This document shows, in pieces, positions 3,361 to 48,417 of a stretch of DNA of 64,000 bases. The DNA lies in the IMG/VR virus record IMGVR_UViG_3300000172_000001, positions 38,431 through 102,430 of that record, one strand, 5' to 3'. Positions within the stretch are counted from its first letter, which is position 1. The number at the start of each line of letters is the position of its first letter. The notes beneath the pieces were generated by a model. The model searched no databases, was not told the origin of the DNA, and saw only the letters and a list, made by a program, of their open reading frames with translations. The position numbers and the translations under genes were made by a program. The stretch is from a virus.

Positions 3361-4020
3361 CGAATAGAAGGGATCTTGGGGCTCTATTCGACGACTCTTC
3401 TCCAGTATTGCTACTGGGTAAAGGTGTTTCAAGTTGTTCAGGTCGCTCACCGAGGATCTCATGAATGTTTGGCGTTAGTTCGATCGGTGATCAACCCGAT
3501 AGCGTAGGCCCTCTCAACAGATCGCTGTGTGCGATACATCCTCTGTTCCAATCGTACATCCTCTGTGCCCTCAAGGCAACTTGAAAGTTTAATTAATGTA
3601 TATAAATAGTGTGCTGTTACGCCAAAGACAACTAGGAGGCACTCCTAGCTACAGCCCCCAATGCCTTTTCCCTGGAGGTAGATTTTATCCAACTGCTACG
3701 TCATGTTTAGAGCATGAGTTATCACTCTTTAAAAGATGGCTGCTTCTAAGCCTACTTCCTACTTATAATTTGGTCGCGAGTGTAGTTTATTACACTACAT
3801 TCCCTCTCTAACAAAGAGGTTCCTAGACTTAGACGAACTCGCGTTAATTGGTGGGGAAGTACAGGATCTTGCACCTGCGCTGATATGCATCAGCATATAT
3901 CCGGATAACTTCCCCTCTAGCAGTTAGGATAGGACTTAAACCTATATATGTTACTAATCGCCAGTGACTGTTCACGCCACCCGTTTTTCACATGTCTTAG
4001 TCTATTTGGACGACCTAACT
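3361..4020 (-). ncRNA. Large structured non-coding RNA candidate with 23S GTPase-centre-like segment
   Basis: About 650 bases without a credible protein gene. The GC content is higher than around it and there are many strong hairpins, including a terminal one pairing 3361-3368 with 3383-3390. On the minus strand, 3726-3760 closely matches the bacterial 23S rRNA GTPase-associated centre (helices 43/44); the core GGCUUAGAAGCAGCCAUC is identical to E. coli. A T-arm-like unit ATAGG, TTTAAGT, CCTAT lies near 3925-3941. Size, ornate folding and place beside tRNAs recall the phage-associated GOLLD and ROOL RNAs, but I cannot assign either. Limits are approximate. Confidence 0.55.
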
Positions 4021-20298: not shown

Positions 20299-21213
20299 TT
20301 AGAAGTTTCCGTAGTTTACTTGGAAACATTGTAGACCTAAGTCTTTACGCCATAGACCAACTACTTGGTCTCTATCATCAAACACGCAAAATACGTTGTA
20401 TTTATCTTTAACGTGTTCATCATAAAGTTTGCGTTTAAGAATTGAATCTCTTATATTATGCTCAAACAATGGTCTCATGAACATCTTCCAATGAGGAAAC
20501 GGAAGGTTTGCTTTCAAAAACTGTCTAGTTTCTGAAAGGTATTTTTCCGATCTTCCAGATAAAAAGATTATTTGGTATCCCTGTTTGTCCATAACGTGAA
20601 GAATTTCCCCCAAAATCGCATTGTAAGTATCGTTCTCACAAGTAGAGGCGTCATAAGGGTTACGGCCTTTAAGGAATGCCATCGTGCCGTCTAAGTCACA
20701 AATGATTGCCTTAGGTAAGCCGTCTACCAACTCAACCGTGCCTGGAGGCTCAGGATAGTCGTGAGGCTCATCTTTCTTTAGAAACCTACTGTACATATCA
20801 TAAATAACTTTAGAGCCTACATGGGCCGATCCTGTACGTAATGCGTCTCGATCAATGGCATCAAATACATCTGTAGGGAATTCTCTAACCACAACTAATA
20901 CGTCGTGCTTAACTTCCCGTAAAATGTTATAGTCCGCCACTATTTTTCTAATATGCTCCTCATTTGAGCTGTGTAAGTTTGTATCATCTACGAATACTGA
21001 TCTTCCGGCATCTAAGTATCTAAAGATTAAAGAGTCTCTAATTGCTTTAATTATTTTCTCATTTCCTTTAGAGTATACTCCACCATCAACCATGCTTCGT
21101 AGACTATCCCTATTTACACGTTTGTATGTATCTGGCATTTTATCCATCATATCTACGGCATACGAAGTCTTACCGCTTGCGGGTAACCCCCGTAGTATTA
21201 TTACTTGTCTCAT
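20299..21213 (-). CDS. pseT: Polynucleotide 5'-kinase / 3'-phosphatase, T4 PseT-like
   Basis: 304 residues, the length of T4 Pnkp. N-terminal kinase: P-loop GLPASGKTS at residues 9-17 and NRDSLR near 35. C-terminal HAD phosphatase: ICDLDGTMAF near 171 (both Asp), FLSGRSEKY near 214, and FDDRDQVVGLWR then LQCFQVNYGNF at the end, as in T4. It converts 2',3'-cyclic-P and 5'-OH ends to 3'-OH and 5'-P, ready for ligation. With the Rnl1-like ligase at 23351 it forms the tRNA-repair pair that defeats anticodon nucleases in T4. Confidence 0.92.
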   Translation of the reverse strand: MRQVIILRGLPASGKTSYAVDMMDKMPDTYKRVNRDSLRSMVDGGVYSKGNEKIIKAIRDSLIFRYLDAGRSVFVDDTNLHSSNEEHIRKIVADYNILREVKHDVLVVVREFPTDVFDAIDRDALRTGSAHVGSKVIYDMYSRFLKKDEPHDYPEPPGTVELVDGLPKAIICDLDGTMAFLKGRNPYDASTCENDTYNAILGEILHVMDKQGYQIIFLSGRSEKYLSETRQFLKANLPFPHWKMFMRPLFEHNIRDSILKRKLYDEHVKDKYNVFCVFDDRDQVVGLWRKDLGLQCFQVNYGNF

Positions 21214-21237
21214 TTTGTATTTCCTTTTATTTATGGC

Positions 21238-21621
21238 TTAGTCTCTATCCCATAACTTTATAGAACTCTCCGCCGTACTCTGGGCGTGTTTGTACTCAAC
21301 GTCAGAGTATTGGTATAAAGATGCTTTCCACATATCTTTATTTCGTGCAAATTGTTCAAGATGCTCGGGAGCTATCACTTCTGTTATTGACAAACAGTTT
21401 CCAGCTGATTCACCTAACTGTGAACTATGTACGCGAGTATTTACATACAAAGTGTCAGAGTCAAAGTCTAACCAGTCGAAAGAGCGCCCCTCACCCTTTG
21501 GAATGAATTTAGTATTTTTGAGTTGGCATATCTCTAACACTGAAGGCTCATATAACCCAGGAAGCACCATTAATACTATATCGCCATCTTTCAGTGTTTT
21601 TAAAAGCTGGTTACTTTTCAT
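21238..21621 (-). CDS. Hypothetical protein between Pnkp and RNA ligase
   Basis: 127 residues. LKDGDIVLMVLPGLYEPSVLEIC begins a beta-rich domain, with a helical end. No recognised motif. Its location between two RNA-repair genes suggests cotranscription, perhaps a related function (inference). ATG directly before the ligase stop. Confidence 0.5.
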   Translation of the reverse strand: MKSNQLLKTLKDGDIVLMVLPGLYEPSVLEICQLKNTKFIPKGEGRSFDWLDFDSDTLYVNTRVHSSQLGESAGNCLSITEVIAPEHLEQFARNKDMWKASLYQYSDVEYKHAQSTAESSIKLWDRD

Positions 21622-22686
21622 TTATTCTCCAAACTTAATTAAGAAGTCAGGGTTAATTACTTTAAAACTAAAGCTACCATCTCTCGCTCTAATCACAATT
21701 CCCTCTCTTGGGATATCAGGATTTAGAAGGCTTGGGCCTTTAGAAAGCTCTACTAATTCGTCTACTGTATGGTTTAACACCATCTTTGGATTAAGGACAG
21801 GTACAGTATTAAATATTCTATCTAACCCTCGTACGCGAACTTCCCCCTCAGTTGTGTAGTCCCCAAATATAAGATTTAGAAAGCTCTCAATACTTCCAAA
21901 GCCACCATCTTGTATAGTAAAAGCGTTAAACATTTTTACTTCTGTAGCAGACAATTTGTATTTATTTTTCTGAATCCCTGGCCCCAGTAATTCTCCTTGG
22001 AAAATTACATTTATACCAAGTTTAGACATTTTCTCTTCTGCGTCAATATCTCTAGCGACTTTCCAGAAAGAATTTTTGTCATTCTCTATTAGGTCAAGCT
22101 TCCGACTGCATACTCCGAAAGGTGTTGCTTTTCGGTAGTTAGGTGCATAATAAAAGGTAGATGACGATCCATCTAATTTCTCTGTTATGTAGCACTCTGT
22201 TCCTGCCCATTCTTTTATTTCATCTACAAGATTCTGTACACGTTCTTCATCCGTCTTAGGAATCCAGGAAGGTCTGTGGCCTTTAATCTGGCCACTTAAG
22301 CATGCTGGAATGGGTGCTTCATATTTTACTACTTTCAAAAGTTCACTTACGTCTGTTCCCACTTCGGGGCCATCGGCGAGCTCTTCGAAAGTATCTAATG
22401 GCATGGCTAGCCCTTGACTAATTTGCTTACGCAATTTTATAGTTCGTAAGCGATAACCTCTTGTGCCGTCATCTATTGTTTTGACACCGTTTTTCTTTAA
22501 GAATTCAAACGGCTCTATTTCTGGCAACAAAGAGTCCACTTCAAAGTAGACGCATTTATCACCTATTTGAAATTCCCCCTTCTTAACTACTAGATGCCAG
22601 CCTTTTACAGTTGCTTTTTCAATTACATCTGCTCCAGAGATAGGCTCTAAATTAGCTATGAGTTGGATTGTTGCTAAATGTCTCAT
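21622..22686 (-). CDS. RNA ligase of the DraRnl (Rnl5) type
   Basis: 354 residues. N-terminal OB-like module MRHLATIQLIANLEPISGAD through VVKKGEFQIGDKCVYFEVDSLLPE, then nucleotidyltransferase domain: motif I EKLDGSS (Lys 170), motif III-like FQGELLGPGIQKNKY, motif IV EGIVIR and motif V FKVINPDFLIKF. The N-terminal domain is the signature of the Deinococcus-like ligases, which seal 3'-OH/5'-P nicks in RNA paired to RNA or DNA. Likely joins nicked structured RNA such as tRNA. Confidence 0.85.
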   Translation of the reverse strand: MRHLATIQLIANLEPISGADVIEKATVKGWHLVVKKGEFQIGDKCVYFEVDSLLPEIEPFEFLKKNGVKTIDDGTRGYRLRTIKLRKQISQGLAMPLDTFEELADGPEVGTDVSELLKVVKYEAPIPACLSGQIKGHRPSWIPKTDEERVQNLVDEIKEWAGTECYITEKLDGSSSTFYYAPNYRKATPFGVCSRKLDLIENDKNSFWKVARDIDAEEKMSKLGINVIFQGELLGPGIQKNKYKLSATEVKMFNAFTIQDGGFGSIESFLNLIFGDYTTEGEVRVRGLDRIFNTVPVLNPKMVLNHTVDELVELSKGPSLLNPDIPREGIVIRARDGSFSFKVINPDFLIKFGE

Positions 22687-22687
22687 T

Positions 22688-23209
22688 TTATAATTTCCAT
22701 TCTTGTTTTAAAAAGTTTATTCTGGCTGTTATACTTTTATAATATTGCCAACCTGCTGGAGACTCCCAGCGATTGCCCGCCCTGTAGGATCTTACAGTTT
22801 TGGACCAGCTACCATTATGTCTCTCATTCTTCCAATAGGTTAGTTCAGTTATTGCTTCTCTACAACTAAGTATGTGACTATCTATGAGCCATTGGGCCAC
22901 TACATTCCTATTAAAGGGTGTGTCCTCTATCTCATCTCTATGTCTACTCATATATGTGTTGATATTGATATGGTGAGCTCCTGCGGAAGGGTCTTGCAAA
23001 TTTACAAGGTATTTACCTCCTGCAGATTCTTGCCACTCAATAGCAGCTAATGTCCACCCTAAATCAAAGGGCACCCCATATTCATAGGATGCCCGTATTG
23101 ATTCTTGTTGATGGCTTGTTAAAGCTTTCCATTCCTCAGGTAAGGCTCCAACGCATAAACATATATTTGTGAGTAGTATTAGTAAATATCTAATCGAGCC
23201 AACTTGCAA
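22688..23209 (-). CDS. Secreted lysozyme/transglycosylase-like protein
   Basis: 173 residues. Signal-like start YLLILLTNICLCVGA, then LGWTLAAIEWQESAGGKYLVNLQDPSAGAHHIN, which has the E-S-(S/G)G and D-x-SAG-x-x pattern of SLT-type lytic transglycosylases (Glu near residue 59 catalytic). A helical C-terminal domain follows. Start is TTG; no ATG is available. It could act in peptidoglycan degradation at entry or lysis. Placed among RNA genes, not beside a holin. Confidence 0.6.
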   Translation of the reverse strand: MQVGSIRYLLILLTNICLCVGALPEEWKALTSHQQESIRASYEYGVPFDLGWTLAAIEWQESAGGKYLVNLQDPSAGAHHININTYMSRHRDEIEDTPFNRNVVAQWLIDSHILSCREAITELTYWKNERHNGSWSKTVRSYRAGNRWESPAGWQYYKSITARINFLKQEWKL

Positions 23210-23354
23210 TTGCAGCTATACCGCCTACAGCTAAAAATAATAAGACGAAGCCAAGCCACAGCGGGGCAGTTATCCACCACCAACTCCATGTAATGACTCC
23301 AACTAACTTTAGGACAAGTAATACTATAAATAGTATGAATCCGGGATTTTTCAT
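23190..23354 (-). CDS. Small membrane protein, two TM helices
   Basis: 54 residues starting MKNPGFILFIVLLVLKLVGV, with a second hydrophobic segment LWLGFVLLFLAVGGIAAIA. The ATG overlaps the TGA of the ligase upstream (ATGA). Ends in TAG inside the next gene's start region. Topology only. Confidence 0.55.
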   Translation of the reverse strand: MKNPGFILFIVLLVLKLVGVITWSWWWITAPLWLGFVLLFLAVGGIAAIASWLD

Positions 23355-24424
23355 TTTTTCTCCGTTTGTTTTGGTTTTAAATATTTCCAAATTAAGGGCT
23401 TTATGTTTTTCCCTTGTAACATTGTAAATACTAAAGAAATTATTTGTTTATTTCCAATATTTATGACTTTTTCTGCTACTGCTTTGGAAGTTCGTTTTTT
23501 CATATCAATTGATTCTGGGAAACTAGTTATAAGGTGCATGTATTGTTTACAAGCAGTGTTTGCTAATATCACATAATTCTCTCTAAAGTTATCTATAGAG
23601 GTATGAAGCCATTTATAGTATTCATCTGGTACAATATCAATTAACTCTTGTATATCTAATTCTGGATCTGATAAGTATTTCCATACCGTTTTATCATTGC
23701 AAAGCTGCAATATACGGTGATGTCTTACATACCAGTCAAATTTTACTTTAACTCTGAACCCGTTATCATATGCTAACACAAATCCTTCTTTGTTTTCTTG
23801 ATTTGGTACATTATATAACTCACTTACATCGCAATCATGTTCATATAGCTCTGTTCTTGGTATACAAGTAGTAACAGCGTGCAACCCTATCTCTCTGCCA
23901 GTAAACGTATCGCGTACTGCCAATAGCCTTAGGTCGCTCTCTGGGTAGGTGATACAGGTCATCCCCCCTTTCTTAAGAGTAGGTGTTAAGAACTCATAGC
24001 AGTATGTGAAGTCCTCCCTTATAGTAAGGTCAGGGTATTTTTCTTCTAAGACTACATTGGCCTCTGTAATATATTCATTATCAAAAGAGCCTCTTGTAGA
24101 TTTAATTAAATGCCCCCTCCACATAACCATTATAAATAGACATCCGTCTAGTTTATTAAAAATGCTGTAGTGGTCATCTGGGAGCTCGATACCTAGTCCT
24201 TCTAATTCTGTATAGTTGAAAAATTTTCTAAAAGGGTTGGCTACTACAGTTCCATATTCATCTAGTATAAGACCCCTACATCTAGTAGTGGTATCGTTCC
24301 AATTTCGAGCATACTGTGTGGCATGGGTATAATTATATATCCAAAGTGGAAACTCTGGATGTTTTCTTCGCTTTACCCACCCTTCCTTTATTTGGGTTTC
24401 TAAAACTGTTAGGACTGTATTCAT
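23351..24424 (-). CDS. T4 RNA ligase 1-like ligase
   Basis: 357 residues, close to T4 Rnl1 (374). Motif I is FNKLDGCLF with Lys 91, preceded by RCRGLILDEYGTVVANPFRKFFNYTE as in Rnl1; EGFVLAYDNGFRVKVKFDWYV supplies motifs IV and V, and a helical C-terminal domain follows. In T4 this enzyme reseals the anticodon loop of cleaved tRNA after Pnkp. Both partners are encoded here within 3 kb. Ends in TGA overlapping the next ATG. Confidence 0.88.
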   Translation of the reverse strand: MNTVLTVLETQIKEGWVKRRKHPEFPLWIYNYTHATQYARNWNDTTTRCRGLILDEYGTVVANPFRKFFNYTELEGLGIELPDDHYSIFNKLDGCLFIMVMWRGHLIKSTRGSFDNEYITEANVVLEEKYPDLTIREDFTYCYEFLTPTLKKGGMTCITYPESDLRLLAVRDTFTGREIGLHAVTTCIPRTELYEHDCDVSELYNVPNQENKEGFVLAYDNGFRVKVKFDWYVRHHRILQLCNDKTVWKYLSDPELDIQELIDIVPDEYYKWLHTSIDNFRENYVILANTACKQYMHLITSFPESIDMKKRTSKAVAEKVINIGNKQIISLVFTMLQGKNIKPLIWKYLKPKQTEKK

Positions 24425-24427
24425 TAT

Positions 24428-25444
24428 TTACCTTTTTGTTTTAAAGCCTATATTATGAGAAGAAATTGCTACTTCAGACGTAGCTACCTCTTGCCTTAGT
24501 TTATTAATTCTGTCTATTGATACTTTATAATCTGTATCTAACATTATGACGCTTACTATGAGTTCTTTAATATGTGCGAAAGACCAGTTATTAGTATCTT
24601 TTACCCAAGTATTTAATTCTTTACCCTTTAAACTACTCTTTAATTGTAAATATTTTTTACGAGTAATTTCATCTGGGTAATCCTGGTGCATAACCCTGTC
24701 AAACCTCGAAGGTCTATTTTTTAAAGATGTAGGAAGCCGTTCTGGATAAGCAGTTGTAGCTAAAAATACAACATTATTTATTACTCCTATTCCATCTAGT
24801 AAATCCAGAATCTTTGCTTCAGCTACTGGATCCATTATAATTCTGTCAATGTCTTCAATTATAACAAGTATGGGCCTATTCCCCTCAATATCTCTTATTC
24901 TAGTAATACCTTCTGATACTACAAAAGAGCTATCAAATACTAAATATCCTTTTTGAATACAATTTGACATTACTATTTTCATTGTACTATTTTTTCCTGA
25001 GCCGTCTCCACCATAAATTAGAATTCCTCTTTTATGGCTTTCTCCCCAAGCTTTATAAGCTGATCCAAGTTTCCAAAATTTTCCTAATTCTAATAATATT
25101 TCTTCAGCTATTGAATTACTAAATAAAATTAGGTCCGAGGCTTCTAGCTCAATATTTAAGAACTCTACGGCGGCTCCTCTAGATTCTAATACTTCATAAT
25201 ACCCTGCTGGTAAAATTTTTACAAAAGCTGAAGCTGGTAAAAAAGTTCCTTGTTCATTGGTTAAATATCCAGAGGTTACGTTTTCAAGATTTAGGTTTTT
25301 ATCTTCGGGGAGTAGGGCGCTATTCTGGCTATCTTCGGATAAAAAAGTTTCAGGTTCACTATTATTATATAATTCTGAACTTGTAATCTCTTTTTTCCTA
25401 AATTTATCAATTTGTTTTTTATCTACTTCTATTTTGCTAGTCAT
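24428..25444 (-). CDS. AAA-family ATPase
   Basis: 338 residues. Walker A GGDGSGKNSTM has Asn where Ser/Thr normally follows the Lys, Walker B is PILVIIEDIDRI, then a sensor-like FLATTAYPERLP and RPSRFDRVM (arginine finger region), as in Bcs1/FtsH-type AAA modules. The N-terminal third is low complexity. A remodelling or chaperone ATPase; no protease domain is present. The altered Walker A may reduce Mg binding. Confidence 0.75.
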   Translation of the reverse strand: MTSKIEVDKKQIDKFRKKEITSSELYNNSEPETFLSEDSQNSALLPEDKNLNLENVTSGYLTNEQGTFLPASAFVKILPAGYYEVLESRGAAVEFLNIELEASDLILFSNSIAEEILLELGKFWKLGSAYKAWGESHKRGILIYGGDGSGKNSTMKIVMSNCIQKGYLVFDSSFVVSEGITRIRDIEGNRPILVIIEDIDRIIMDPVAEAKILDLLDGIGVINNVVFLATTAYPERLPTSLKNRPSRFDRVMHQDYPDEITRKKYLQLKSSLKGKELNTWVKDTNNWSFAHIKELIVSVIMLDTDYKVSIDRINKLRQEVATSEVAISSHNIGFKTKR

Positions 25445-25454
25445 AAATCTCCAT

Positions 25455-25483
25455 AAAGAAAAACGGGGCCGAAACCCCGTTTA
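25455..25483 (-). terminator. Intrinsic terminator
   Basis: ACGGGG, TTTCGG, CCCCGT followed by five T on the minus strand, just after the gene at 25488-26339. Confidence 0.8.
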
Positions 25484-25487
25484 TATA

Positions 25488-26339
25488 TTAATATCTAGTT
25501 GTACACGCTGGACAACATATCCAGGTAGACTTTTTTCGTCTAAGTCCACATTTTTGGCAATAACGTTTCTCTAAATCATTTACCGTAATAGGTTTTAATG
25601 ACATAGGTAATAATTTATAGGTTACTACATGAGAGGGAGTATGCTCAAATTTTTGATAGCTTCTTCCGAACTTTTGTTCTGAATGACTACCTTGTTTAAT
25701 TCTACCCGTCTCTTTCATAGGCGCGCTTGCAAAGCATGCGGTTGTAAGTACTTCGCCACTATCTTCTATCATACCCATAGCCATTTGAGGCTCTGCTGGA
25801 TTTGAGCATCTTGTGCCCCTAGCGCTATACATACTTGGCGCTGACATGCCGCTAATTCCCGTGAATTCGCCAGCAAGGTCGGTCCACCAAGTATTATCGT
25901 TGGTTAGTATATCACCTTCCCATGTAAACGGTCTTGGGTAGACATTAGGATTAGTGTATGGGCTACAGTATTTATGCTCGATAGGAAATGACTCTCGATA
26001 AAACTCTATCTCTAGTAATCCGTTCTCGGCTATAGCTTTGTCTATTTCCTCAGTATCTTCTACGTTATATGTTGAAAATTCAAACTTTCGATCTACTTCG
26101 ATATGTCGTTCCAGAAAATAATGCTGTCCAGGGTCAAGCACAAGCCCGCCATTGGAAATATATTTTCCATTAAGTTTTATCCTCAATTTACAGGAAGAAG
26201 TTTCTAAGTTAGTAAGTTCGATTTCAAATTCGTCTTTATCATTTAAGTAATAAGTTGCTTCTATGCCATTCCAGACATCTAATTGGCTATATACTTTTAA
26301 ACGATTCTTTTGAATTGTAAGGTTGGTTTTTATATTCAT
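25488..26339 (-). CDS. Zinc-ribbon protein with beta-rich N-terminal region
   Basis: 283 residues. The C-terminus YCQKCGLRR then WICCPACTTRY is a Cys4 zinc ribbon. The first half looks beta-structured (ATYYLNDKDEFEIELTNLETSS). The middle is low complexity with several Cys and Met. A promoter-like motif lies 100 bases upstream. Function not recognised. Confidence 0.55.
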   Translation of the reverse strand: MNIKTNLTIQKNRLKVYSQLDVWNGIEATYYLNDKDEFEIELTNLETSSCKLRIKLNGKYISNGGLVLDPGQHYFLERHIEVDRKFEFSTYNVEDTEEIDKAIAENGLLEIEFYRESFPIEHKYCSPYTNPNVYPRPFTWEGDILTNDNTWWTDLAGEFTGISGMSAPSMYSARGTRCSNPAEPQMAMGMIEDSGEVLTTACFASAPMKETGRIKQGSHSEQKFGRSYQKFEHTPSHVVTYKLLPMSLKPITVNDLEKRYCQKCGLRRKKSTWICCPACTTRY

Positions 26340-26436
26340 TATTGTTACCTTGTGTTTACGTCAAATTTGTGTGGAATTGCCACACTCAAATGCCACATAT
26401 TTAATATGACACTCTGATACAATTATCAGGTCTCTT

Positions 26437-26449
26437 AAATATAACTATT
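26437..26449 (-). promoter_or_regulatory. Candidate promoter motif, TTATATT class
   Basis: Same 13-base minus-strand sequence as at 1141, in the gap between 26340 and 26475. It could drive the zinc-ribbon gene and the terminator-bounded unit. Confidence 0.45.
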
Positions 26450-27762: not shown

Positions 27763-27781
27763 AGGTTTCCTTTTTTGATTG

Positions 27782-27854
27782 CTGTAACGACGAGACTCGA
27801 ACTCGCAACCACTGCATTAACAGTGCAGCGCTCCACCAATTGAGCTACGTTACA
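27782..27854 (-). tRNA. tRNA-Asn (GUU)
   Basis: Acceptor TGTAACG/CGTTACA, anticodon stem CTGCA/TGCAG, loop CTGTTAA, N73 G, T-loop TTCGAGT. Confidence 0.9.
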
Positions 27855-32596: not shown

Positions 32597-32618
32597 GTTA
32601 TCTCCTTTTTCTTATACC

Positions 32619-39264: not shown

Positions 39265-39332
39265 TTTAGTGAGTTCCTGGTTAATTTTGATTGTAATTTT
39301 TGTAATAATTTGTGTGTTTTGGGACAATTTAT

Positions 39333-39442
39333 TGGTAAAAAGAGCGCAAAAGTGGTCAAAAGGTGGTTGAAAGTGGTAAGCAATTGGTCGAAAGTGGTAA
39401 CGAAAGTGCTCAAAGTGGTAAAGAAAAGTGTAGTTTTGGTAA
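39333..39442 (+). repeat. Left iteron array, TGGTAA class, six copies
   Basis: TGGTAA or TGGTCA at 39333, 39353, 39374, 39394, 39416 and 39437: steps of 20, 21, 20, 22 and 21 bases. Most copies read AAAGTGGTAA. All point the same way and face the right array. Confidence 0.75.
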
Positions 39443-39566
39443 GACCTATATGTTGTGTAATGGGTATATAGCTTGTGTACGATATAGTTCTGCACAACAT
39501 ATGGGTAACCTATATAGCTGCTTGCTCTATCTAAAATAGAAATACACTGGCTTTTTTTGATGGTTT

Positions 39567-39660
39567 TTTTACCACTTTTGATGTTTTGCTTACCAGTTTG
39601 GGGCGTTCGCTTACCACTTTAGGGGGGTTGGCTTACCAGTTTGGGGGTTTTGCTTACCAG
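39567..39660 (-). repeat. Right iteron array, TTACCA class, five copies
   Basis: TTACCA preceded mostly by GC at 39567, 39588, 39609, 39631 and 39652 (steps 21, 21, 22, 21). Several read GCTTACCAGTTTGGGG. It is the inverted counterpart of the left array, 125 bases away. Confidence 0.75.
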
Positions 39661-39724
39661 TGCCATTTTGGTCGAAATTGGGTGTAAGTATAGGTAAATA
39701 ATAAAGATAAGAGAAAAGTATAAA

Positions 39725-40095
39725 AAATCCAAACTACACTTTTGAATCCATTACTACACCATTACTACACATAGTAAAAAAATATATGTATATATAATAA
39801 CAATAACTTATTTGGTCTAAACTACGATTACTACGATTACTACGCTTTCTGGAAGGAGAGACACGTCAGCAAATATTTATAAATTGTCGATCTCTTTTTT
39901 TTCTGATTAAGGACCCTCTAGTTTTGGCCTAAAAGTGTAGTAATGTAGTTTAGTATTGATAAGTGTATGTAAATAAAGAATATATCCAAACTACACTTTT
40001 GAAAATAGGTGTAGTAACGTGTAGTAATGAAATTGGTAATTGCTATAAATGCTTAAAAATACTGATGTTATAGATAAAAAAAAGTGTAGTTTAGA
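39725..40095. repeat. ACTACAC / GTGTAGT repeat family
   Basis: AAACTACACTTTTGAA occurs twice (about 39733 and 39990) and inverted GTGTAGT units occur near 39933, 39945, 40010, 40020 and 40083; ATTACTAC units lie between. Copies are in both orientations and unevenly spaced. Confidence 0.7.
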
Positions 40096-40371
40096 ATTTG
40101 GAAATATTTCCTTAATTAGGATACGCTTGTCTTTTTAGTATATAAATGATGGTGTAAGTGATGGTGTAAATGGTGTTCCGTGCAGGCTACAAGCCTACTT
40201 TTTCCTAAAGTTAATTACAAGCGGTTTGCTAGCAACCAACTTGTGTTCTCCTTAGTACGCATTATTGATATATATGCTAACGGAACATTCAGGAAGTTTA
40301 ATGGCCTTTCGAGAAGAAAAAGATAGCACGGCCAATTACGGCCAATTATTCTTCTTCAGGATGTAGTAGTA

Positions 40372-41193
40372 TTATTTGGTTGTGGTGTCTGCTTTTGATA
40401 CTAAATCTTCAGCACAAGGTACATAGACTGACTCATAAGTTACTGAATCTTGTTTGTTAGCTATGTGAGCTAACCCACGCCAGGCTGCTTCAGGTAAGTT
40501 CATACATCCTAGTTTTCTGATGGTACCGTTTTCTCTGTATCTTATGTTGTATCCGAAAAGCCTTTGAGGTTTTGGGTCTTGTAGGTGTTTGTAGTTGAAC
40601 CCTGGATAGAAGAATGTGCTCTTACCCGGAATTAGGTGAGTCTCGTTCTCATACTCATCGCTGTAGTTTTTTAAGGAGTGTATTCGAAATATTGGCTCTA
40701 AATAAGAGTCCAGAGCGCTATCGATTATTACACATAGCTCGTCATTTCCAACATTTCCAGGTATTTGAACAATATCACCTTCACAAGGAGTTGTAACTTT
40801 TGAGGGGTTGTATAGCTTTCTTATAAGATCTTTAGAAAACATAATTGATCGAGCATCTGTAGCAGAATATACTATAAATGCACCTTTCAACATTGCAAAC
40901 ACAAAGTCTTTAGAGCTGAACAACACTTTAGGTACTAACTCTCTGGGGTAGTATATATTAAAGGCTGAGTGAGATAATTTAGCTCCTGAGCTATATAGTA
41001 ATAGATGAGGAGTGTCTACAGATACGCTGTCTTGTTGCATTACTGTTACAACATTATTATTGATATCAGTACATATTCGTAGATGACCTATTAACTCGTC
41101 AATGCTTTGCTGACTAGACATAAGATAATAGAGCCTTGACATATAGTCTTCTACTGCTAGATTAGCTATTTGGGGATGGTCTTTGAGATTCAT
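40372..41193 (-). CDS. Paralogue family B member
   Basis: 273 residues. Shares with the next two genes: YYPRELVPKVLFSSKDFVFA, FSKDLIRKLYNPSKVTTPCEGDIV, a later C/F-x-x-LQDPKPQRLFGYN and a C-terminal GCMNLPEAAW. The layout looks like two beta domains. Some extra Ser/Asp-rich tail. No known function. It ends beside the repeat-rich region. Confidence 0.55.
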   Translation of the reverse strand: MNLKDHPQIANLAVEDYMSRLYYLMSSQQSIDELIGHLRICTDINNNVVTVMQQDSVSVDTPHLLLYSSGAKLSHSAFNIYYPRELVPKVLFSSKDFVFAMLKGAFIVYSATDARSIMFSKDLIRKLYNPSKVTTPCEGDIVQIPGNVGNDELCVIIDSALDSYLEPIFRIHSLKNYSDEYENETHLIPGKSTFFYPGFNYKHLQDPKPQRLFGYNIRYRENGTIRKLGCMNLPEAAWRGLAHIANKQDSVTYESVYVPCAEDLVSKADTTTK

Positions 41194-41932: not shown

Positions 41933-42619
41933 TTAAAAATAATCGTTGTTGGCGGATTCAAGTAACACGTCCCACAAGGATTTAGTGATCCTATGACATC
42001 CAATTTGAACAATCCGGGACTGAGAACCCTCATTAGTAAATCTGGCGTGATACCCGAACAATCGAGGTGGTCTTTTGGTTTGTAAAAATTCACAAGAATT
42101 TACAAAGCTCATAGATACCTCACGATCGTAGCCCCGAGTGGTGGCTATAGAATAATTGAAAAGATTATTATTTTCTTGAAGAGTTACATAATTTATAGTA
42201 TGTGGGGTATCTTCAAATAATATAACATCACCTTCGCAGGGTACCAGTACTTTAGTAGGAAGGCCTATCTTACGTATCAAGTTTTTGGAAATATATATAT
42301 AATCGGAAAGTTCATGATGATACACTAAAAAATGATTTCTAAAAGCTGCGTAAATTGCTGTACCACTTTTACTTAACACTGTAGGCTTTAATTCTTCTGG
42401 AAACTCATAATGGTGAATCGTTTTGGTAGGAGGTAAGCCTGTATAGCTACGAGAATAAGCTGTGTATTTTCCTGTAGACAACACATACCCTATCGAAACA
42501 TCGCCGAATATAGTTCTCTGTATAATAACTGGAGTATGTATGTCCCCCATTCTATGTTGCAGGGACATATATTCTTTAGCAAGTTCATATGTTAATTTGT
42601 CTGTAATAGTTTTAAGCAT
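41933..42619 (-). CDS. Paralogue family B member
   Basis: 228 residues. HYEFPEELKPTVLSKSGTAI, ISKNLIRKIGLPTKVLVPCE, CEFLQTKRPPRLFGYH and IGCHRITKSLWDVLLESA. First of the three tandem copies. The C-terminal IGC-x-x-I-x-x-x-LW-x-LL unit also resembles the VGC segment in family C at 50-52 kb, a possible distant link. Confidence 0.55.
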   Translation of the reverse strand: MLKTITDKLTYELAKEYMSLQHRMGDIHTPVIIQRTIFGDVSIGYVLSTGKYTAYSRSYTGLPPTKTIHHYEFPEELKPTVLSKSGTAIYAAFRNHFLVYHHELSDYIYISKNLIRKIGLPTKVLVPCEGDVILFEDTPHTINYVTLQENNNLFNYSIATTRGYDREVSMSFVNSCEFLQTKRPPRLFGYHARFTNEGSQSRIVQIGCHRITKSLWDVLLESANNDYF

Positions 42620-42925: not shown

Positions 42926-43012
42926 TAAAAAAAAGAATACGCTTGTAAGATGGCACAGAGTGCACGGGCGTAAGGCCAATTTTTCAGGTGGCTTTCCTGG
43001 TATTCTTTTTAT
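42926..43012 (-). terminator. Terminator of structured RNA B
   Basis: AAAGAATAC at 43001-43010 pairs with GTATTCTTT at 42932-42940, enclosing two smaller hairpins, followed by eight T on the minus strand. An unusually large terminator loop. Confidence 0.65.
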
Positions 43013-44060
43013 GGAAGATGAGAGTGGCTGAGGGGTAAACTCTTCTTCCGAGGGATGCAACTCCCTTTGCGAGACTTATTAATCCCCGCACCACCTACGT
43101 TAAGTAGGAAGCCCTATCTTAAATTCTTTTCCAAATTGAAGGCTCTAGCCTTGCAACTCCTTCGGATAGACACCCAACGTTTTTATTACGTCTTTGGCCC
43201 AGTTTTATGAAGTTTGTACTTTTCCTGAGAATACAGTTAGTACGGTATATCTTTAAAGGGATCATTTCAATTCCCCTCGTTTCCACGCAGACTTACGTCG
43301 TCGTAATACACCAATCACAGCTCCAGGTATGGAGCCAGGTCTTTCCACTTACATTAACTCTACAATTTCACGACTATCTTAGCTGCCGCCAAGCTTAACC
43401 GCTTCCTTATAAATACTGCTGCAACCCTTGCGAGGCGCAGAGCTCGACGTTATACAGGCCGATATTAGTGATCTTTTATTATAAGCAGCCAGGAATCTAA
43501 TTGCTTTCATTATAAATGACGAGAATCGAACTCGTGATCTACGGATTAATATTCCGTTGCTCTACCAACTGAGCTACATTATGGTTTTTCTGTGATTGGG
43601 AGGACGCGTTCCCGGTTGTGGTTACGTAGTTTTCAGCCACATAATGCCACTCGCCCTCGTAAGTCATTAGCCATGACAGCCTCCGATCCTTCATCATAGT
43701 AGTTGTCTCTTCTTGACTTAGAAGCCAATGAAGGCCTCAATATCTTGATCCCGACAAACTATATAATTGATAACCCGCTTGACAGACAGGATATCTTGCG
43801 ATTACTATACAGACATTTCTGCCTACCCCTCAGGGGATACGTATCTCGACCTTCACGCCTCGCAGTTAGCCTGGAGTGTTGGACTATTTTTTACAAGATA
43901 AATAGAAGTTCGCAGTGTATAAATGTTTGCACTCCCGAAGGAGAACAACGCAATGCCAGGTATAATTTCACAGACCCGACTGCTTTTAGTCCCATTGCTG
44001 GGGTTATCTTTAACTGGATGTCATACCACCCAGGTGCTAATTAAGGCTAAGCCTTGATTG
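43013..44060 (-). ncRNA. Large structured RNA candidate B with embedded tRNA-like domain
   Basis: About 1.05 kb without a credible gene. It starts just after a GGTATAAGAA promoter (44066), ends at a large terminator and contains a tRNA-like fold at 43511-43583. Many hairpins, e.g. AGGCTAAGCCT near 44045 and CTCCAGG/CCTGGAG near 43321. Within it, GTGAAATTG and GGAAAGACC occur 16 bases apart (43341-43374), both short matches to 23S rRNA domain V. The size and embedded tRNA fit the GOLLD class of phage RNAs; that assignment is a hypothesis. The plus strand shows one 113-codon frame here that I reject. Confidence 0.55.
43511..43583 (-). tRNA. tRNA-like domain with AUU anticodon inside RNA B
   Basis: D-stem GCTC/GAGC, anticodon stem ACGGA/TCCGT, loop ATATTAA, T-arm ACGAG, TTCGATT, CTCGT are canonical, but only four of seven acceptor pairs form. 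An A34 anticodon (AUU) is atypical for bacteria. Probably a structural domain of the large RNA rather than a free tRNA. Confidence 0.5.
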
Positions 44061-44065
44061 CGAAA

Positions 44066-44075
44066 TTCTTATACC
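44066..44075 (-). promoter_or_regulatory. GGTATAAGAA promoter motif for RNA B
   Basis: Minus-strand TGGTATAAGAA, immediately upstream of the candidate RNA. Confidence 0.55.
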
Positions 44076-44104
44076 AGAAAATATTGTTTTTTAAAAGACA
44101 TTGG

Positions 44105-44115
44105 GTTATATTCAA
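44105..44115 (+). promoter_or_regulatory. TTATATT-class motif
   Basis: GTTATATTCAA three bases before the ATG at 44118. If it is a promoter the transcript would be almost leaderless or start at a later ATG. Confidence 0.35.
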
Positions 44116-44117
44116 GT

Positions 44118-45617
44118 ATGGAAAGAAATTATGAAGTATTTAGAGCTAGGGTAGTTTCAGTAGAGAGTCCTGATGTAAACGCCCTAGATAAAAAAGACAT
44201 ATATATTCAGGCAATAGATGAGACAGATCCTGAGAAGACGTATTTGGCGTTACCTCCGATATTTATACCAACTTCTGCATTTGGGTCGGGAGTAGTATCA
44301 GTGCCTCCTGAAAATCAGGAGTGTTTGGTGGCCTTGGACAAATGAAATAATGTTGCACAGATTCTTACTTATATCCCCTCAGGACTATCTTCGGCCTTCG
44401 GCGGTTTATCTGCAGAAGCTGTACCAGAGGGGGGAGTGTTATTAAAAATAGGTGGAAAGAACAAAACTAACTTCCTAATGGCTCCAGATGGATTCTTTAG
44501 TTGGTTTTCTAACGCCTTCGCTGAAATAACTTTGGATGGAGCTTATAAGAAACTAAATATTACAACTAAACGATATGAAAGACGAAGCGCAACTAATTTT
44601 GTTAGAGACTCATATCATCCTAAGAAATCTGCAGGAATAGATAAAGGAGCTACATCACATTTAGAAGTATATTCAAAGTTTGATGATACTACTGGGTATC
44701 TTGACCATATCTCAGAAAACACTGAGACTCACCGCAGTATTCCTTTCAAGCACCAATTCACAGATCAAACTATTATAAAGTCTGGATACATACCTCATGT
44801 TAAGAATTTAAAAGGCACGCCTTATTCCCATTTGTATCAATTAGAGACTAGACAAGCTACTGGAGGTTCTAAACAGAAGAATACCTATACTAAGTTACAT
44901 CTAGGGTATCAAGGGGCTACAGATCTATTTGATATAGGAGAAGAACACCCGGCAGGTTCTTTATTTCATTGGGTATTTAAACGAGCAGTAACAAATAATA
45001 ATAGCTCAATGATAAATAGATTTGGGAAATTAGAGTCCGGGAGTTTAGCGGGAGAGTTATATAGACATCAAATATATGATGGAACTTTTGATGCTACAGC
45101 CTGGAAAGCTGGGCAAGGTTACGATTATACTTTTATCAACACCGGAATTAAACAGCAATATGTAAGTAGTTTTGGCAAGTTAAACACGGGTAGAATATGA
45201 GGAAGACACATCCATCAGCTAGAAACCACAACTAATGGTAAAATGTATACTAAAGAGTTTGGCGGTACAGATATATTAAAGACAACAGTGCAGTCCGGGG
45301 ATGTTGCAACTCCAGAGTTGAAATTGACAAAGACGTTAAATAATGAGGCATACACTGTTAAACTGAATCTAGGAGATACTACTCTTACTATAACTTTGGA
45401 TAGCAGCGGAATAACTCTTGACGTGCCTGAAGGTAAAAATGTGTATCTCGGAGGCTCAGAGGGTCAGACGTTAGTTACTAAAGAGTTTGTTACAGAATTA
45501 TACGCGGGACATACACATGGTACAGGAGTGGGACCTTCGTCACCTCCAATAATTCAGCCAAGTATTTATGATCCTTTGGATGAGAATATTTATACTGTGA
45601 AGACTTTATCAGAATAA
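44118..45617 (+). CDS. Baseplate spike/hub-type virion protein with two recoded TGA codons
   Basis: 499 codons in one frame with TGA at 44343-44345 and 45198-45200 read as Trp. The N-terminal SVESPDVNALDKKDIYIQAI then YLALPPIFIPTSAFGSGVVSVPPENQECLVAL is an OB-like domain; the C-terminus LYAGHTHGTGVGPSSPPIIQP is the H-T-H-x-GP-x-x-PP signature of baseplate assembly/spike proteins (gpV or gp45-like), preceded by beta-helical repeats. Three Trp also use TGG. ATG chosen for frame continuity. It overlaps the next gene at TAATG. Confidence 0.75.
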
Positions 45618-46159
45618 TGTTAAGTGAAACTAATTTAAAGACTGAGCTAATCGCGGAGTTTTATAAGTATTATTATTTAGAAGGCGATAACCGAATAGCT
45701 TATACAGTTGATGAAAAAAGCATCAGGTTAGGGGAGATTATTAGTGAATATATGAGCGAGGCTGTAGTAGGAGTTACTGGAATCACTACAAACTTTTCTA
45801 ATGTAGAAATAACTATACCCGAATGACCAGAGGTTGATGTATCTTTAACTTTTATATCTAACCCATTGGCGGAGATTTCAGGGTCTAGAGGTATATCTGA
45901 TGAAGATTTACTAGCGGAAGCTACTACATTAGTACCTACAGCAGTAGGATTTATAACTTATACTCCTGTAGGACCAATAATACCCTTTATAACACCCACA
46001 TGAGGTAGCAGCAATGCAGAGTTAATAGCCCAAACTGTGGAGATCTTTTGTGAAGACTTGGCAACTAGTATCCATAACTATGTAAAACAAATAAAGTTTC
46101 AAATGACAGGAACGTCGGCAAGTGGTGTAGTACTTACAGTAGTATGGACTATAACGTAG
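45617..46159 (+). CDS. Virion protein with two recoded TGA codons
   Basis: 180 residues reading TGA at 45824-45826 and 46001-46003 as Trp. Ends at TAG (46157-46159). LKTELIAEFYKYYYLEG then SEAVVGVTGITTN and a C-terminal beta region. It follows the spike gene with a one-base overlap, so a baseplate or tail component is likely, but no family is recognised. If TGA were a stop it would be 69 residues with orphan coding sequence downstream. Confidence 0.6.
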
Positions 46160-46187
46160 ATAATACTTGACTAAAAACCTAAGCTTA

Positions 46188-46198
46188 GTTATATTGAA
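46188..46198 (+). promoter_or_regulatory. TTATATT-class motif
   Basis: GTTATATTGAA, 42 bases before the large structural gene. A 12-codon frame (MLEETKLVINWR) lies between and ends at that gene's ribosome site. Confidence 0.4.
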
Positions 46199-46239
46199 AT
46201 GTTAGAAGAAACAAAGTTAGTGATTAATTGGAGATAATA

Positions 46240-48417
46240 ATGGACAACTTATTTATAAAGAACTCTTTTACTAAAACAGCGTCATACTCAGTGGATATGG
46301 ACGCAACGAAGTGGGTTAGAAATGTAATTACGTATTTTTACGAACAATATCCGTTCGCTCAAAATCAGCCTGCAGTGGTTCAGTGGAAGAAAAAAGATAG
46401 TACAAAGGGATATGCGGTAGGGGTATTAAAGATATCCGGGGCATCCATACCAGTAGTAATCAAAGATTGGAAATTATCTCCTTTAGACATAGTTATGGCA
46501 GGTGGAAGAACTTTACCACTTAATACTGAGGTGTTAAGAACTATGTTAACTTCGCCAGGAGCATTTGTAGGAGTAGCGTCGTCTCCTCCTAAATCAGGAC
46601 TGGACATGTTCTCACAATTACAGTATTCTCCTGATGGGAGTATAAACAATTCAGCTAGCGAGTCTAGTTCACAAGAACGACCTGCTAAAATAGCTTCATT
46701 TATTGACAAAATTGAGCATATAGACAAAAAAGCCGTTGTTGAAATACTAAATACTGTTAAAAACAACCCAGAAATCCATAATAACTTCAAAAAGACCGGA
46801 AGATTAGACGTTTTAGACAAACTAGCGTCAAAAACAGAGAGTCAAGAAGAAATCGTGGATTCTTTCATTAGGGACCTTGATATAGATAGACAGTTAGTTA
46901 TTAAAGACTCTTTAGGTAATCACACAGTTAAACAAGCTAATTCTAACATAGATTTTGTATGAGAACTCCCTATTAAGGCTTCAGAAGCTGAAGAATTTGA
47001 GATATTAACTGCTTCAAGTTTCCAAGAAAAGACTGCTGAGTCTGTAGATGCTAATTGCTACAAGATTTGGGACACTGATAGACACCTTATGGTAACATCG
47101 GACAAAGATTATCATGATTTTAGTAGAAATGATGTGAAAACGGCTGAAGCATTTACTTTAGAAGAAGACCAACCACAAGTTGGTGATCTTGGCGTTTGAA
47201 AATTTGGAGAATCAGTCTCTGAACCTTTTGAAGTACTAGGAATGGACAAAGTATCGTCATATTCTTCAAATCTTTATAAACTAGACGGAGGTCCAGGGTA
47301 TCTTAGCATCAGTAAGAATAAAGATTGGGTTATTTTAGAGAAATTAGGACAAAAGTCTTCAGAAAATGTAGAAATAGACGGAGATTTTCCTAAAATAGGA
47401 GATTTCGGAGCGTGAGTTATGCCTGATGGCAGTGCCACTAAGCCTTTTGAGATTAGAGAACTATTACAAGACTTAGAAGCTTCTAGCAATAAACAAGTAC
47501 AAGTAGCAGGTTGGGATGGATTGCAGAAGATTGCGTATTACCTGACTGAAATGCCTGTTAAGAGTCTGATGGACTCAGAGAATGGCGGAAAGTTACTACC
47601 TAAAGAAGCAAAGTTTGTTAAATTAGGCAAAGAATTAAGAAAAGTTTCTGAAGTTAGCGAGGATAATCAAGATACCCCATTAAAAGTTACAGGATGGGCC
47701 GGAAGAGAAAAAGTATCTTATTACATCGACAACACAACTACTTCTGAAGCAAAATATGTAGAAAAAGAATCTAGTTGGTATTTATCTAAGGACGTGAGCT
47801 TCATTAAGCTAGGATCATACTTACAAAATGAAATACCACATACTGTTAAAGTAAATAAACACACAGTTGGAAAAGACTCTGTAGGCCTTTATTACTTAAA
47901 AGGTGCAGAGTTCTCTAAATATGCAGAAAACAGCCATGAATTACGTGATTTAAGCCTCTCAGAGGCAGAATGATCATTAATTCATTGTGGAGCAACCAAG
48001 ACTGATATAAATAAGGCGGCAATGTTGCTGAAAGGCACTGAAATGCTAATTGCTTGTCCAATTGAAGCTCCTATACCTCCAAAAGTGTTTATTGATAAAA
48101 TAGCAGAAACTTATGAAGATAGTACTAATGACATAGAGATGTTAAAAGTAGACTTAGTAAAAGAGGCTGCGGTTTTATCTGATAAAAGCACTGTAGATGC
48201 TGTATTGTCTCTTGGAGCTATCAACAAACAGAATATTATAGAATACATAGCTCTATTACCTCAATATGAGATGATTATGAGTGAATTAGCCAAAATGCTG
48301 CTTATGACTAGGTTAGGTATGAGGCATCTTCCGGAGGAAGCCGTAAAGAACGCCATGGATTCAGTAACTAAAATAGTACTGTTGCTTATGGGCGTTAACA
48401 AACTGTACTCTAATTAG
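46240..48417 (+). CDS. Large virion structural protein with four recoded TGA codons
   Basis: 725 residues from ATG after TTGGAGATAATA, with in-frame TGA at 46960-46962, 47197-47199, 47413-47415 and 47971-47973. Two TGAs fall at the same place in an internal repeat: VGDLGV-TGA-KFGES...PFEVLGM and IGDFGA-TGA-VMPDG...PFEIREL, so the codon stands for a conserved residue, most simply Trp. TGG is also used (TKWVRN, KDWVIL). Ends in TAG followed at once by the next ribosome site. Probable tail/baseplate or internal virion protein; no family recognised. Confidence 0.7.

Follow-up and report, generated by a model that had tools for sequence, protein, structure and literature searches.

The minus strand of this large phage encodes a non-coding RNA of ~0.84 kb that almost certainly belongs to the GOLLD family, whose model is matched at 43659–43222. 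We consider it probable that this RNA is a phage GOLLD equipped with its own transcription signals, whose linker carries a tethered, non-translating tRNA mimic inside the GOLLD cage. An embedded tRNA in GOLLD is not unprecedented: tRNAs within GOLLD linkers have been reported (PMC12286853), as has a pseudo-tRNA in a mycobacterial GOLLD that gives no detectable tRNA (PMC6582537). The new aspect, as judged from sequence comparison, is that the domain recurs, always just 5′ of the conserved AAAGCAA motif in about 13 phage lineages, with a decaying acceptor stem.

Identification of a GOLLD RNA

The window analyzed here is a stretch of 64,000 nucleotides from a 102-kb viral record. The full RF02032 (GOLLD) model, positions 1–416, was matched without truncation at 43659–43222 (minus strand) in a local cmscan search (124.8 bits, E=5e-34; E=1.8e-32 for the same match over the whole window). 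This match substantiates the original prediction of a structured RNA in this region. GOLLD was absent from a default Rfam scan of the window because the gathering score of RF02032, 150 bits, is above 124.8 bits; the cmscan check suggested with that prediction turned positive once this curated cut-off was relaxed. The gathering score is an annotation threshold and not a structural feature, and was therefore not taken as defining GOLLD. By the threshold of a published family survey (E≤1e-5; PMC12286853), the match is clearly a GOLLD. The helices of the conserved 3′ region are all in order in the cmscan alignment, and the single-stranded and pseudoknot motifs AAAGCAA, AAAGnTnACTAAT, CGCAAG and TGTAnTCTCAG are all present and ordered between 43507 and 43224 (minus strand). 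Some GOLLDs with linker insertions are hidden by the Rfam cut-off; tRNA-bearing members with the same motifs were found at 126.5 (contig L151), 117.2 (L163), 98 (L165) and 94.7 bits (L162).

Identical sequence (100% over the compared stretches) occurs in contigs of 141,836, 163,945 and 205,518 bases, and the phage genome is therefore probably at least 205 kb. A blastn search of the GOLLD unit against phages matched the tRNA part only, and a search with the GOLLD consensus gave no match in plasmids.

The expectation that two giant RNAs would coexist in this phage was not borne out. GOLLD was the only one matched in the window, with no ROOL, OLE or other giant RNA at E≤0.5 over its whole length, and a single GOLLD was detected in the 102-kb record, as in each of the contigs of this phage, which reach 205 kb. 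Two large gaps were considered as giant RNAs and rejected: the gap at 39.3–40.4 kb has no family match and looks repeat-rich and origin-like, and that at 3.3–4.4 kb, also without a family match, contains tRNAs, tRNA-like pieces and a ribosomal-RNA mimic. Matches to T-box at 42600 (14 bits) and to RCNMV_5UTR (16 bits) were dismissed as noise.

Boundaries of the transcription unit

A promoter had been predicted for this unit, and the element GGTATAAGAA is located at 44075–44066 on the minus strand. It is a real promoter element of the phage: the 102-kb record contains it in 12 exact copies, every one of them on the minus strand, and most of these closely precede a minus-strand gene. With one mismatch allowed, the window contains 17 matches compared with 8.8 expected, and none of 100 shuffles reached 17 or more. 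GGTATAAGAA thus defines a phage promoter family that is restricted to the minus strand. Further exact minus-strand copies are found, for example, at 32618, 57512, 57823, 58115 and 61047, often with TTTTTTTACCTTAAAAAG ahead of them.

We infer that the RNA starts near 44058 (minus strand). From there to the 3′ end of the GOLLD model (43222) the RNA would measure ~835 nt, in agreement with a total length of around 800 nt or more. The first ~400 nt (44058–43660, minus strand) form a lineage-specific 5′ region, which lies outside the Rfam model and is comparable in length to that of env-38. Locally it folds no more than slightly better than shuffled sequences, and no close relative was found for comparison. 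The 3′ region proper (43659–43222) is followed by a ~210-nt extension (43221–43011, minus strand) without an Rfam match, in which the fold of 43160–43013 has a z-score of -1.2 against shuffles.

An intrinsic-type terminator at 43010–42930 (minus strand) would end the transcript. Its 11-bp outer stem, AAAAAGAAUAC/GUAUUCUUUUU, encloses small hairpins and runs into the U tract UUUUUUUU; the fold has a z-score of -2.75, and an equally good one was obtained in 0 of 200 shuffles. The original prediction was thus right about the existence of a terminator and wrong about its position: the predicted hairpin, at ~43013–43050, was rejected because it lacks a U tract behind it on the minus strand, and the better one lies ~80 bases past the predicted boundary. 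Directly past the terminator, the next copies of GGTATAAGAA (42912–42903, with one mismatch, and 42860–42851, exact, both minus strand) precede the downstream minus-strand genes. As originally predicted, the GOLLD unit is autonomous, with its own promoter and terminator.

A tRNA-like domain in the GOLLD linker

The GOLLD linker contains a class I tRNA-like domain at 43582–43511 (minus strand), with its arms parsed and an RF00005 score of 58.7 bits, comparable to those of the true tRNAs of this phage. It is the only one not called by ARAGORN among the 20 tRNA matches above the Rfam cut-off. All pairs of the D, anticodon and T stems are formed (4/4, 5/5 and 5/5), and the GG of the D loop and the TTCnAnT of the T loop are present. 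As predicted, the anticodon is AUU (anticodon loop AUAUUAA) and the acceptor stem is broken: 4 of 7 pairs form in register, or 6 bp if one U is allowed to bulge, so that it falls short of the seven-bp stem of a functional tRNA. No CCA is encoded after the domain. Bacterial tRNAs rarely use anticodons that begin with A, and several of the embedded domains described below have such anticodons (AUU, AAU, AAG and AGG). The tRNA-Asn(GUU) of the phage itself is encoded separately, at 27781–27854 (ARAGORN).

Only 3 nt separate the end of the domain from the AAAGCAA motif of the GOLLD consensus (43507–43501, minus strand), which lies directly 3′ of it. In the env-38 GOLLD, whose 3′ region starts at nt 421, the disordered linker facing the lumen comprises nt 497–538 (PMC12286853). 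This corresponds to about positions 76–118 of the 3′ region, and the tRNA-like domain aligns at the same place.

Recurrence across phages

A tRNA-like domain is also found in the GOLLD linkers of the Roseobacter-group phages DSS3_MAL1 and MD18, the mycobacteriophages Papyrus and Weiss13, Sinorhizobium phage Phosso and the viral contigs L151, L158–L160, L162–L167 and L196/L198, each confirmed with RF02032. In every relative that carries one, the domain is located 0–11 nt upstream of AAAGCAA or a close variant. The figure of ~13 lineages is a judgement based on sequence similarity and not on a tree. V10 and DSS3P8, which share ~69% identity with MAL1 in this region, have no tRNA-like domain, and neither do the GOLLDs examined from Acinetobacter and Streptococcus phages; in many GOLLDs a short A-rich linker takes its place.

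Our first DNA pattern for GOLLD was too loose, returning 120 loci that were mostly chance-like, with one GOLLD among the 40 checked. Contig L131, proposed as a GOLLD carrier by a pattern scan of contigs, was a false positive in which the model found no GOLLD. In several phages a tmRNA gene adjoins GOLLD (L129, 977–1395; L143, 1591–2007; L145, 1744–2159; L026, 5274–5356).

Acceptor decay and core conservation

Stem pairing was compared over 15 embedded domains. Pairs are formed at 58 of 60 D-stem positions, 74 of 75 in the anticodon stem and 72 of 74 in the T stem, compared with 68 of 105 in the acceptor stem; these paired fractions (0.97, 0.99, 0.97 and 0.65, respectively) were 0.83, 0.61, 0.72 and 0.35 in a control in which strands were mispaired between sequences. 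Since our search patterns required the T-loop sequence, conservation of the T arm is partly a selection effect; this selection did not involve the D, anticodon and acceptor arms, and the pairing of the first two is somewhat inflated by a parser that takes the best D and anticodon arms. The GG in the D loop and an A as its first base are retained in all 15 domains, and the anticodons are diverse.

The state of the acceptor stem varies. A 7/7 stem occurs in only two of the 15 domains (L166 and L196/L198), and L151, L159 and L160 have 6/7 pairs. Papyrus, L162, L164 and L165 have no acceptor at all, and AAAGCAA follows their T stem almost immediately; the long variable arm of the Papyrus domain made manual placement necessary. 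For 58 free-standing tRNAs from the same loci, with register slack allowed, the stem is 7/7 in 45 and 6/7 in 11. The inner acceptor pairs of the embedded domains are formed more often than by chance, so that the decay is incomplete.

In L162 and L165, a pair of related acceptor-less copies, five of the six substitutions in the domain fall in the anticodon arm, including the anticodon loop, and the anticodon stem shows a compensatory flip from A-U to U-A. A test for clustering of these substitutions was uninformative because substitutions cluster in the 5′ region too, and the arm-by-arm count was used instead. No earlier description of acceptor loss with core retention across phages was found in a literature search that covered part of the key GOLLD papers.

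Other features of the phage

A small RNA-like element at 3767–3601 (minus strand) copies the GTPase-associated centre of 23S rRNA. It consists of GGCTTAGAAGCAGCCATCnTTTAAAGAGTG, a variable insert and CTTTGGCGTAACAGCACAC, closed by a 9-bp outer helix, and was matched to positions 1089–1152 of LSU rRNA in the whole-window cmscan (34.5 bits, E=8e-7); a narrower search did not report it again. The same split design is present, unannotated, in phages GAP32, Aeromonas 4_4572, Vibrio 2.275.O and pf16, where the outer helices differ yet still pair (for example, GTGCAGTGG/CCACTGCAC in pf16), and phage CBB gives the same two-piece match. Such an element may bind L11 or act as a decoy for translation factors. 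No description of a phage mimic of the 23S GTPase centre was found in our literature search. Next to this element, 4375–3770 (minus strand) contains, besides a tRNA-Ala and a tRNA-Met, several unusual tRNA-like pieces that ARAGORN does not call, some of them with a terminal CCA.

A frame scan revealed in-frame TGA codons in late plus-strand genes (43923–48417 in the window; about 20390–26449 in G000:C1), with frames of 564, 725 and 2019 codons containing 3, 4 and 5 TGA, respectively. TGA is the terminal stop in some minus-strand genes, and a tRNA-like gene with a UCA anticodon is located at G000:C1:4052–4148. The frames suggest that the late genes decode TGA as an amino acid.

The stretch at 39270–40372 is non-coding and repeat-rich, with a 21-bp unit repeated 4.8 times, CCATTACTACA and other repeats, and is located near a change in GC skew. 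It looks like a replication origin.

Possible role of the embedded domain

The RNA described here would be transcribed leftwards from the promoter at 44075–44066 and ended by the hairpin at 43010–42930. Based on the solved structure of the family, a 14-mer in env-38, it should assemble as a closed multi-copy cage; the linker, and hence the tRNA-like domain, would sit inside. The domain would then be a tethered tRNA mimic, with a retained core (D, anticodon and T arms, the GG of the D loop and the T loop) and an acceptor free to decay. Since the D, anticodon and T stems are 97–99% paired and the acceptor is 65% paired or absent, it is unlikely that the domain serves this phage as a tRNA in translation. 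Decay of the acceptor while the rest stays paired suggests that what is being maintained is the core or anticodon arm and not the capacity for charging.

Alternatively, GOLLD could be the precursor or the storage cage of a functional phage tRNA that RNase P and RNase Z excise. The intact cloverleaves of the tRNA-Asn(GUU) in L196/L198 and of L166, both with 7/7 acceptors, fit this idea, as does the frequent location of GOLLD in tRNA clusters, and caged phage tRNAs have been raised as a possibility (PMC12286853). However, the acceptor is bulged in this phage, with neither a CCA nor an ARAGORN call, and it is lost entirely in Papyrus, L162, L164 and L165; in addition, the pseudo-tRNA embedded in the M. 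aubagnense GOLLD has no detectable expression (PMC6582537). We thus consider a functional tRNA unlikely, while with the complete or 6/7 acceptors listed above the domain could still undergo excision and charging in some phages. It is also rather improbable, if slightly less so, that the domain is a neutral passenger, a tRNA gene that landed by chance in an unconstrained linker and then decayed. The widespread acceptor decay, the domain-free relatives V10 and DSS3P8 and the many short A-rich linkers are as expected for a passenger, but the decay is not uniform, sparing the D, anticodon and T stems, a compensatory change occurred within an acceptor-less copy (L162/L165) and the recurrence is always at one site.

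Protein coding on the plus strand, with an incidental RNA signal, is a very remote prospect. The candidates are a 113-codon frame (43703–44044) and a 34-codon lipoprotein-like frame (43953–44057), the latter with a Shine-Dalgarno-like GAAGGAG and a lipobox-like LTGC. Neither has a Pfam or PHROG family match, and the covariance match to GOLLD on the minus strand has an E-value of 5e-34. The 34-codon frame is antisense to the GOLLD 5′ end and could encode a small lipoprotein or be due to chance.

For the tethered mimic, a docking or decoy role toward readers of the tRNA core or anticodon arm can be suggested only tentatively. The mimic might dock or titrate such readers, including tRNA-modifying enzymes, ribosomes and anticodon nucleases. 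A previous study mentions that GOLLD binds ribosomes in pull-downs and that phage tRNAs are encapsulated (PMC12286853). Anticodon loops of phage tRNAs have been proposed to evade host defences that target tRNAs (PMC10264068), which makes the decoy reading testable. More speculatively, the GOLLD cages of many phages might have their inner wall lined with arrays of tRNA cores that lack an acceptor, and so work as a dock or decoy for host factors able to read cores or anticodons. Such factors could be, for example, anticodon nucleases of defence systems or tRNA-modifying enzymes, and selection would then preserve the core and the anticodon arm while leaving the acceptor unconstrained.

If the cage lumen does repeatedly hold a tRNA core with a dispensable acceptor, the possible functions of GOLLD are narrowed. 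For such phages, the storing of usable tRNAs would become less likely, and recognition of the tRNA core or the anticodon arm more so. The existing isolates DSS3_MAL1, MD18, Papyrus and Phosso share the design and allow a direct test.

Comparison with known GOLLDs

The env-38 GOLLD, determined by cryo-EM as a 14-mer cage, has a total length of 833 nt with a 5′ region of 420 nt (PMC12286853). The RNA described here is similar in its full and ordered 3′ region, its ~400-nt 5′ region, its total of ~835 nt, its tRNA-gene-rich phage genome and the variable linker before AAAGCAA. It differs in its score of 124.8 bits, below the cut-off of 150, in the 72-nt tRNA-like domain of its linker and in the ~210 extra nt before the terminator.

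A degenerate tRNA-like domain inside GOLLD is shared with the GOLLDs of Mycobacterium tRNA arrays, which contain a pseudo-tRNA (PMC6582537), and with Papyrus and Weiss13 (L138 and L137). In the two phages, whose copies are those examined for position in this group, the domain is likewise directly before AAAGCAA. Papyrus has no acceptor and a long variable arm, whereas the domain described here has a bulged acceptor and belongs to class I. The GOLLDs of DSS3_MAL1 and MD18 (L143 and L145) score 160–170 bits and have the domain in the same place, also with an interrupted acceptor stem, but they carry an Arg-like UCU anticodon and an adjacent tmRNA gene, and are not near-identical in sequence to the GOLLD of this phage.
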